Shown here one piece after another: positions 42,424-46,634 of a stretch of 64,000 bases of DNA. Each line of letters starts with the position of its first letter. Position 1 is the first letter of the stretch. Both the position numbers and the translations under genes were made by a program. The notes below the pieces were generated by a model. That model saw only the letters and a program-made list of their open reading frames with translations. It was not told the DNA's origin and ran no database searches. The stretch is from Candidatus Hydrogenisulfobacillus filiaventi (GTDB lineage: Bacteria > Bacillota > Sulfobacillia > Sulfobacillales > R501), in contig LR778114.1 of assembly GCA_902809825.1 (NCBI GenBank), positions 930,001 to 994,000 of the forward strand, written 5' to 3'.

Positions 42424-42727
42424 CCGCACGACGGGAGACCCCCTGAGTCCCCACGCGGGTGGGGCCGGCGACGGACGGGCCTTTCCCGGGCCGACGGGGA
42501 CTCCCCACGTGGGGTCCTAACTGGTCGACCGTATTCGACAGCAGGTCGGGTCGAGAAGCCGGGCAGGCCCGGCGCCGGGGCTTTAACCGGGGTTCAAACG
42601 CACGAACGGTGTCGAAGGCCCGTCCCGCTCCCGACCGGGGCCTATGGCAGAGTAGCGGCGGGACGGGACGGCCCGCCCGCAGGGGCTGTCTGTGTCCCCG
42701 ACCCGAAACAGGGAAGGGGTGGTACCC
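42424..42727 (+). other. 304-base GC-rich leader with repeated CCCCAC hairpins
   Basis: CCCCAC-GCGG-GTGGGG (42449-42464) lies just after the ATPase stop and may help end that transcript. A perfect 12-base palindrome, CCCCACGTGGGG (42503-42514), is flanked by GGA and TCC. GTTC/GAAC half-sites occur around 42593-42608. No clear promoter or known riboswitch consensus was found, and no gene is credible in the gap. Confidence 0.4.
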
Positions 42728-43663
42728 GTGACACGTTTCATCCGGACCCGGGGAGGGCGCCGGCTGGCCGGCGGGGTGGCGGCGCTGGCCGGCAGCCTGC
42801 TTCTCACTGCACCCGCCTGGGCGCAGTCGACCGCTTCCGCCAGCGGCGGCCTCCTGGGCCTCGGCATTAACCTCTTGAGCAGTGATGGCAGTGCCACGGC
42901 CAACGCCGGCGGCAACGGTCTCCTCAGCCTGAGCCTGAATGCGTTGTCCGACGGCGGTTCGGCGACCGGCACCGGGCCGGTGGCAGCTGCGGCCAACGTT
43001 CTCTCCAGCAACGGCAGCGGCACCGGCAGCGGGGCGCTGGCCGGGGTAGGGGCCAATATCGGCTCCAGCGGCGGCTCCGCCAGCGGCAGCAGCAGTGATG
43101 GCGCCGGGGTGGGCGCCAACGTGCTCGCCAGCGGCGGCAACGGCACCGGTACCGGTGCCCTGGGCGGGGTGGGCGCCAACGTGGGCTCCAGCGGCGGGTC
43201 CGCCACCGGCAGCGGCTTGGTCGGAGCGGGGGCCAATGTGCTCTCCAGCGGCGGCACCGCCACCGGCAGCGGGGTAGCCGGTATCGGTCTCAACGCACTC
43301 TCCAGCGGTGGGTCCGCCACCGGCAGCGGCGTCATCGGCCTGGGGGCCAACATCGGGGGGCAGCCCTCCGCGTCCAGCACGCCGGCGCCGTCCGGGGCCC
43401 CCTCCAGTTCGGCGCCGTCGAGCTCCAGCCCCACCCCCTCCACCAGCAGCACGCCGCCGGCTGCCAGCACCGCTCCCAGCGGCGTCTCGGCGCTGCCGGT
43501 GACCCCGGCCCCCACGGTGTCCGCTGCGGTCTCGGCCACGGTGCCGGGGGCGACCAGCGTCACCACCGGCGTAGCCTTGGGCCGGGACCTGGCGTGGGGG
43601 GCGGCGGCCCTGGCCGCAGGCCTGGCCGGGCTGGGCCTCAGCCGGCGCCGGCGTCACGTCTAG
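42728..43663 (+). CDS. Secreted Gly/Ser-rich tandem-repeat surface protein
   Basis: A 311-residue exported protein, GTG 42728 with GGGAAGGGG upstream. A signal peptide ends near residue 32 (APAWA). Residues about 35-216 are imperfect 20-residue repeats of the form G-V-G-A-N-V-L-S-S-G-G-S-A-T-G-S-G. The repeats alternate a hydrophobic strand with a Gly/Ser turn, as in a beta solenoid. A Ser/Pro linker leads to a final hydrophobic helix and RRRRHV, resembling a membrane or wall anchor. No true LPXTG precedes it (the nearest is LPVTP, too far upstream). I do not recognise the family. It may be a spore or cell-surface adhesin. Confidence 0.72.
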   Translation: MTRFIRTRGGRRLAGGVAALAGSLLLTAPAWAQSTASASGGLLGLGINLLSSDGSATANAGGNGLLSLSLNALSDGGSATGTGPVAAAANVLSSNGSGTGSGALAGVGANIGSSGGSASGSSSDGAGVGANVLASGGNGTGTGALGGVGANVGSSGGSATGSGLVGAGANVLSSGGTATGSGVAGIGLNALSSGGSATGSGVIGLGANIGGQPSASSTPAPSGAPSSSAPSSSSPTPSTSSTPPAASTAPSGVSALPVTPAPTVSAAVSATVPGATSVTTGVALGRDLAWGAAALAAGLAGLGLSRRRRHV

Positions 43664-44205
43664 GATGCCGCCGGCCGTGGCGGCGGCTGCCGCCACGGCG
43701 GCTCGGCGATCAGGCTGGAGCCCGGAACCGGCAGCAGGTCCGGTTTCAGGGCCCCGGCCCGGGGCCGGCGGCCCGTTGGCGGGGCCGGCGGCCGCGGGGC
43801 GGGCAGGATGGTCACCCGCACCGCTTGTATGCCGAAAGCGGCCACCTGCGCGGGACCGCCATTCAGGAAGATGTCGATGCGGTCCCCCTGGATGGCGTCC
43901 CCCGTGTCGCAGGCCACGGCATAGAACCCGGGCTGCGGCAGGTCAGGCGAGCGGTAGCCGGTGATGTAAAGCCGGCTGCCGAGGGGGATGACGCGGGGAT
44001 CCACGGCCACATCCCCCGCCACCAGCGGCTGGCCGTAGAAGGTGACCGGGCCGAAAGGGAAGTTGTCCCGCCGGCTGGGCCCGTAGGCGGTCGCGGTCAT
44101 GACCAGGGTGTGCGCCGGCGGCGCCGCGGCATGGGCCGGGTGCACGACGGCCATAGGGCCGGCCGCTCCTGCCAGCAGCAGGGCGGCCAGATACCGGTTG
44201 CTCAT
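43660..44205 (-). CDS. Exported 3D-domain protein (lytic-type cell-wall factor)
   Basis: A 181-residue protein with a signal peptide (about residues 1-28, ending AHA) and a 3D domain. The three aspartates of the double-psi barrel are in VAVDPRVIPLGSRLYI, VACDTGDAI and GDRIDIFL. This fold occurs in MltA-like and Rpf/YabE/YuiC proteins acting on peptidoglycan. A Pro/Arg-rich tail follows. ATG 44205 has AAAGGAGG. It converges on the repeat-protein gene with a four-base overlap. Confidence 0.85.
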   Translation of the reverse strand: MSNRYLAALLLAGAAGPMAVVHPAHAAAPPAHTLVMTATAYGPSRRDNFPFGPVTFYGQPLVAGDVAVDPRVIPLGSRLYITGYRSPDLPQPGFYAVACDTGDAIQGDRIDIFLNGGPAQVAAFGIQAVRVTILPAPRPPAPPTGRRPRAGALKPDLLPVPGSSLIAEPPWRQPPPRPAAS

Positions 44206-46307: not shown

Positions 46308-46634
46308 TTGGACATCAAACTTGTGAATATCGGATTCGGTAACATCGTCTCGGCCAACCGCATCGTGGCTATCGTCAGTCCCGACTCCGCCCCCATCAAG
46401 CGCATCATCTCCGAAGCCCGCGACCGGGGCGTCCTGATCGATGCCACCTACGGCCGTCGTACCCGTGCGGTGATCGTGACCGACAGCGACCACGTCATCC
46501 TGTCGGCGGTGCAGCCGGAGACGGTGGCAAACCGGCTGGCCAGCCGGGAGGTGCCGGCGGAGGAGACGGTTGAAGAGGAAGAGGAGGAGGCGGAGCCGGC
46601 CGCAAGCGAGCCGGCTCCCTCCGGGGAGTCCTGA
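46308..46634 (+). CDS. remA: RemA-family extracellular-matrix regulator
   Basis: A 108-residue protein of the DUF370/RemA family, a DNA-binding activator of matrix and osmoprotection genes in Bacillus. The core [18 protein letters not shown] and [20 protein letters not shown] is complete within about 85 residues. A distinctive acidic tail with seven Glu in a near-unbroken run follows. The start is TTG 46308 after GGGGGAG. It leads an operon with rpoZ. In many Bacillota gmk lies between the two, but it is absent here. Confidence 0.93.

Follow-up and report, generated by a model that had tools for sequence, protein, structure and literature searches.

The chemistry by which sortases join surface proteins to peptidoglycan is established, and the curlin repeats of CsgA are known as short strand-turn-strand units with a conserved Asn. 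The established classes of sorting motif are LPXTG, NPXTG, LPXTA, LAXTG and (S/P)PXTG, of which the last is the nearest published one found to the motif described here, (S/P)PXTG peptides being cleaved by the SrtB enzyme of C. difficile (PMC4155245). SPXTG also stands in a list of candidate motifs (PMC13251363). A literature search with the motif spellings S-[V/P]-x-T-G returned no SV form, and no sortase work was found in the literature search for the acidophilic, hydrogen-oxidising lineage studied here. By analogy, the nearest functional counterparts of the protein described below would be the sortase-anchored hydrophobic proteins of actinomycetes, namely the long chaplins and CwpA/CwpB (PMC13251363). 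As for the second kind of protein encountered at this locus, 3D/Sps proteins have been argued to be muralytic (PMC1084345), a view that the YuiC structure paper also backs (PMC4499186).

The window, that is, the whole stretch of DNA analysed, covers 64,000 nucleotides of Candidatus Hydrogenisulfobacillus filiaventi, whose closed genome of 2,570,337 bases will be called R50 hereafter. The organism represents a new family near Sulfobacillus, has 2,756 protein genes, and grows at pH 2.5-4.0 with an optimum of 3.0, at 55°C (PMC10080006). Since spore formation was not observed in R50, according to the available text of the same description (PMC10080006), localisation of the protein in spores is without support. 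The gene of interest lies at 42728..43663 on the forward strand, running from a GTG start at 42728 to a TAG stop at 43661-43663, and encodes a protein of 311 aa; with an alternative GTG start at 42692 the protein would be 12 residues longer (323 aa). The ORF was confirmed as real at this place. Its coding nature is supported by a paralogue of 342 aa with ten repeats (L004:9156-10184, minus strand), which is 57% identical, with a dN of 0.45 against a dS of 0.94 (NG86, 291 codons) and an excess of differences at the third codon position (103, 91 and 151 differences at the three positions, respectively). This paralogue is the only other protein in the R50 genome that carries the same repeat. By inspection, residues 1-32 (42728..42823, forward strand) form a signal peptide with a basic start, a hydrophobic core and an AxA site, ending in TAPAWA immediately before QS, and the APAWA segment is common to the paralogue. 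The protein would therewith be exported by the Sec route.

The signal peptide is followed by nine tandem repeats (42833..43363, forward strand) with the consensus xVGVGANVLSSGGSA(T/S)GSG. The earlier note had described a secreted protein of about nine 20-residue repeats, in which a hydrophobic strand alternates with a Gly/Ser turn. The secretion, the alternation and the number of repeats all stood, whereas 20 residues turned out to be the mean length and 19 the commonest period. That is, an invariant Asn occurs at residues 48, 71, 90, 110, 131, 151, 170, 189 and 208, giving spacings of 23, 19, 20, 21, 20, 19, 19 and 19 (mean 20.0). The periodicity exceeds chance, as identity at a lag of 19 is 0.338 in the 311-aa protein (highest value among 2000 shuffles, 0.308) and 0.629 in the paralogue (highest shuffle value, 0.281). 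Two repeats of the paralogue have the same amino-acid sequence, from which a third departs at one residue; at the DNA level its repeat is a 57-base tandem array. When the two R50 proteins are taken together, the Asn is kept in 19 of 19 repeats, with 19 as the common period, and A, V, I or L occupies positions -5, -3, -1 and +1 relative to it in 18, 19, 19 and 19 of the 19 repeats, respectively, the positions in between being mostly filled by Gly. Glu, Lys, Arg, His, Cys and aromatic residues are absent from both repeat regions, and Asp occurs only three times in that of the 311-aa protein and once in that of the paralogue. A stalk rich in Ser, Pro, Thr and Ala and devoid of charged residues comes next (43364..43540, forward strand); like the repeats, it has no cysteines. 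This stalk, together with the hydrophobic tail and the four arginines that follow, is present as previously described.

The protein matched no Pfam or NCBIfam model, Pfam giving no family even at E≤1. Searches with the whole protein and with the repeat alignment found no relative beyond R50 in the genome-contig collection, and none was detected in viral contigs or plasmids, nor in 60 other relatives or 397 other genomes of the phylum. Within the class, the search yielded, beyond the two repeat proteins of R50, only matches to the tail, one in R50 and one in genome G017. In PHROGs the protein had no match, and the stalk of the paralogue had one weak match (E = 0.043). A sequence search of the PDB gave a single match of no value (E = 0.69) with the protein and none with a two-row profile. 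The earlier view that the protein belongs to no known family was thus upheld by the sequence searches of Pfam, NCBIfam, PHROGs and the PDB.

Two AlphaFold2 single-sequence models placed two strands in each of the repeats, with a low mean pLDDT (54.7 for the whole protein, 61.0 for the repeats only). Foldseek returned no match at E≤0.001, and the nine matches obtained against the PDB all had E above 5. The matches listed by VIA-align for the repeat model are largely right-handed beta-helix proteins, the best Z among those listed being 10.2 for a chain of the SufB-SufC-SufD complex (rmsd 3.9, 162 residues aligned); EtpA is also among them (Z 9.3, rmsd 3.0, 169 aligned). These structural neighbours agree with the repeat region being a beta-solenoid, as predicted from the models, but do not prove it. 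The nine repeats may thus build a short parallel beta-solenoid, with two strands per repeat and a ladder of Asn residues, about 4 nm long. The low confidence of the models would also suit a disordered, low-complexity Gly/Ser/Ala spacer without any fold, as would the third protein with the same tail (see below), which is Ser/Pro-rich and lacks repeats. However, the strict hydrophobic alternation and the Asn kept throughout are not expected of a spacer, nor is there an N-terminal domain for it to carry, making this option quite improbable. Another possibility is a beta-helical adhesin, i.e. a short rod binding mineral or neighbouring cells, comparable to proteins with FHA-type repeats, whose 19-residue length is matched here; the presence of EtpA among the structural matches listed would fit as well. 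Against this, the beta-helix fold match is generic, the predicted rod has neither loops nor extra-helical motifs for binding and a surface nearly free of charge, and neither the haemagglutinin activity/secretion domain nor the haemagglutinin repeats of FHA/TpsA proteins were found by Pfam at E≤1. We consider an adhesive rod just as improbable as the spacer.

The C-terminal 40 aa (43541..43660, forward strand) comprise VPGATSVTTG, a hydrophobic stretch and RRRR, with HV as the last residues; SVTTG is encoded at 43556-43570. The earlier note took this region for a membrane tail with four arginines. The hydrophobic stretch and the arginines are indeed there, but tail alignments and searches led us to read the region instead as a sortase-type wall-sorting signal, in which motif, hydrophobic stretch and basic end stand in the order of such signals. 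The R50 motif, A-T-S-V-T-T-G, belongs to an unusual form, A-T-S-[V/P]-x-T-G; SVTTG falls outside the established classes, whereas the tails of relatives carry SPxTG, an established type. A two-row whole-protein profile matched a third R50 protein and a protein of one relative, through the tail alone. The former (L016:5874-6785, minus strand; 303 aa) has the tail ATGVTTG and could be a third protein, likewise dispersed, that takes the same sorting route.

A four-row tail profile recovered two more R50 proteins, each directly adjoining one of the two sortase genes of the genome. In this search A-T-x-[P/V]-x-T-G was found in 22 of the 35 matches (G028:C139 included), two of the 35 being left out of the motif reading; a sortase gene is found within 10 kb for 16 of the 22 motif-bearing matches, as against none of the 11 labelled motif-less. 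An 18-row profile, in which the A, T, T and G of A-T-x-x-x-T-G are invariant in all rows, then identified 39 places, spread over 29 of the 154 genomes of the class. The distance to a sortase gene was within 2 kb for 27 of these places and within 10 kb for 33, and in 23 the two genes share a strand and are separated by less than 1 kb. The 39 places include the 18 rows that built the profile; outside them, 18 of 21 are within 2 kb of a sortase gene, although some of these are closely related to the rows. In the 18-row search, a pattern match recovered the motif in 20 loci, with L124, L126 and L127 not matching the pattern and several matches falling outside the motif reading; G013:C34 is without the motif. 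Importantly, a sortase gene is present in all 29 tail-bearing genomes compared with 70 of the 154 class genomes overall, which would have a probability of 2e-12 if genomes were independent, a figure overstated by their relatedness. In a phylum sample of 398 genomes only three tail matches were obtained at E≤1e-5, including R50 and G004; the signal therefore looks largely confined to the Sulfobacillia class. A family of tail-bearing proteins of about 235-250 aa is shared by G017 (L012 and L017), G008 (L024), G035 (L025) and G034 (L026), those of G017, G008 and G035 lying 7-9.5 kb from a sortase gene and on the opposite strand.

The sortase linkage holds for the tail family and not for the repeat gene of the window itself, whose nearest sortase gene is 73 kb away. 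This distance, the hydrophobic tail with RRRR and the non-canonical SVTTG (with Val at the position occupied by Pro or Ala in known motifs) could all point to a plain membrane-anchored protein, whose ordinary transmembrane tail ends in a positive-inside cluster and is no substrate of a sortase. Such an anchor needs no motif, however, whereas it is precisely A-T-x-x-x-T-G that is conserved in the tail, in 18 of 18 rows, and the family tails cluster with sortases. Simple membrane anchoring is therefore rather unlikely, and we keep to the wall-sorting signal.

The two sortase genes of R50 (L020:6092-7198, minus strand, and L021:6091-7164, plus strand) are each located beside a gene with the family tail. 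Both products pass the Pfam and the general NCBIfam sortase cut-offs; the best class-specific NCBIfam models are those of class D, at 76.3 and 79.7 bits, which is below the cut-off of 165. A His, a Cys and an Arg (H122, C177 and R189) are invariant in nine aligned sortases of the class. The two R50 sortases and their class relatives also have in common a conserved C-terminal extension, about 170 residues long; the idea that this half is a decayed second sortase domain was not supported (hhalign probability 0.1%). G013, whose sortase is closer to the second R50 enzyme than to the first, is the only other genome in which an S-V-x-T-G tail was seen beside a sortase gene. The neighbour of the first R50 sortase (L020:5131-6051, minus strand) is a secreted protein of 306 aa, rich in segments of the VGNLTS/VNTVG type and with the tail ATSVETG; by eye, the first 35 residues of the 342-aa paralogue after its signal peptide resemble this protein. 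Other sortase-adjacent proteins (L021:4933-6018 and L028:511-1611, both plus strand, L047 and L041) contain repeats of a motif similar to VPDFTQxGFPQVV..IPAGAF..PVxFELLEGP. No Pfam or NCBIfam match was obtained for the R50 member, and these proteins are possibly a class-specific surface family.

On its 3′ side the repeat gene is convergent with, and overlaps by 4 nt at its stop, a gene on the minus strand (43660..44205, ATG at 44205) for a secreted 3D-domain protein (PF06725, E = 1.1e-13), so that the wall-enzyme neighbour announced by the earlier note was found. Another 3D gene, whose product also has a G5 domain, follows the paralogue on the same strand after four bases. The R50 genome has only four 3D matches and, given the first pairing, the paralogue would also adjoin one of the other three with a chance of about 6 in 2,755. 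The 3D protein of the window is closest to that of L010 (60% identity), and the neighbour of the paralogue to a YabE-like protein in L009 (52% over 213 aa). As the two pairings, the only ones in R50, use different 3D subfamilies, duplication of a single gene pair is unlikely. A conserved operon was rejected, since dapF and tail proteins are both missing within about 1.5 kb at all 19 loci that carry 3D homologues in other genomes. Both R50 neighbours share PF06725 with Sps/YabE-type proteins, and that of the paralogue resembles YabE in combining G5 and 3D (PMC1084345), whereas that of the window has the 3D domain alone. A RemA protein (extracellular matrix/biofilm regulator; 155.7 bits against an NCBIfam cut-off of 140) is encoded at 46308-46634 on the plus strand, 2.6 kb from the repeat gene, and could regulate surface genes.

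By contrast, the structured leader postulated upstream of the gene (42424..42727, forward strand) did not hold up. The 304 nt have no excess structure (fold z of -0.42; of 100 shuffles, 31 equalled or exceeded the stability of the native sequence), and no Rfam family reached its gathering score in this region or in the whole window. The leader of the paralogue gave a fold z of -1.22 and, by eye in a two-sequence alignment, has no clear element in common with that of the window. A riboswitch or structured leader was also discarded at permissive Rfam thresholds, which gave only sub-threshold, unrelated families. A c-di-GMP aptamer had been suspected by eye upstream of the paralogue, for which the Rfam search gave nothing.

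Taken together, we propose, with a probability of about 0.6, that the repeat protein is a wall-anchored surface protein forming a short, uncharged beta-solenoid coat. After export, A-T-S-V-T-T-G, the hydrophobic stretch and the arginines would hold the protein at the membrane, where a genome-encoded sortase would cut between Thr and Gly and join it to peptidoglycan, as could be expected from the linkage between tails and sortases and from the established chemistry of these enzymes. The Ser/Pro stalk may then span the wall, and many copies of the protein and its paralogue could cover the cell, which lives near pH 3, with a coat that is uncharged and insensitive to pH. An uncharged surface would keep its ionisation unchanged near that pH, which would fit the organism. 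The adjacent 3D-domain protein, presumably muralytic, may open the wall, or remodel it, at the sites where the coat is deposited.

The repeats lack a capping domain at either end, and uncapped beta-solenoids could stack end to end, amyloid-like, into a self-assembling fibre as in curli; a self-assembling surface fibre was what the earlier note had suggested. Such a fibre would be compatible with the Asn invariant in all 19 repeats, the Gly/Ser turns and the existence of two genomic copies that could co-assemble. Yet the wall-sorting tail and stalk would fix each copy at one end, no curlin match was obtained in Pfam at E≤1, and filaments go unmentioned in the available text of the R50 description, its images aside (PMC10080006). 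A free self-assembling fibre is therefore unlikely, and less likely than the wall-fixed coat, because the tail is of the sortase-type wall-sorting kind. A more elaborate version of the wall-fixed coat is doubtful: an Asn-ladder, charge-free, acid-adapted armour of beta-solenoids, sorted by an S-V-x-T-G code absent from the literature searched, served by dedicated 3D muralytic partners, and polymerising after anchoring, either side by side or end to end.

With the proposed wall-fixed coat, what was an orphan repeat protein becomes a wall-anchoring system that can be tested, in a lineage of acidophilic hydrogen oxidisers. Furthermore, the S-[P/V]-x-T-G signal connects the sortases of the class with surface proteins that are not otherwise related, so that the surface proteome of the class could be catalogued from sequence data. 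As a simple, charge-free and probably acid-stable unit, presumably a beta-solenoid, the repeat could also be useful as a material.

Compared with known systems, the R50 protein shares with curlin (CsgA) short repeats, predicted here to be strand-turn-strand, with a conserved Asn, but differs in its wall-sorting tail and in having no Pfam curlin match. It resembles the beta-helices of filamentous haemagglutinin and other TpsA proteins in its 19-residue repeats and predicted beta-solenoid, but is far shorter, has a probable monoderm-style anchoring and no secretion domain match, and no sequence similarity was found. Like the long chaplins and CwpA/CwpB of actinomycetes (PMC13251363), it is probably wall-anchored, beta-rich and hydrophobic, with little else in the protein. 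Unlike chaplins, it has no Pfam chaplin domain, no cysteines in repeats or stalk and no GN motifs at 12-13-residue spacing, and it comes from a different phylum. The features in common with sortase-anchored LPXTG-like proteins are the signal peptide, the stalk, a motif ending in TG, the hydrophobic stretch, the basic end and sortases in the genome. The difference lies in the motif, S-V-x-T-G in R50 and S-P-x-T-G in most of the relatives seen.
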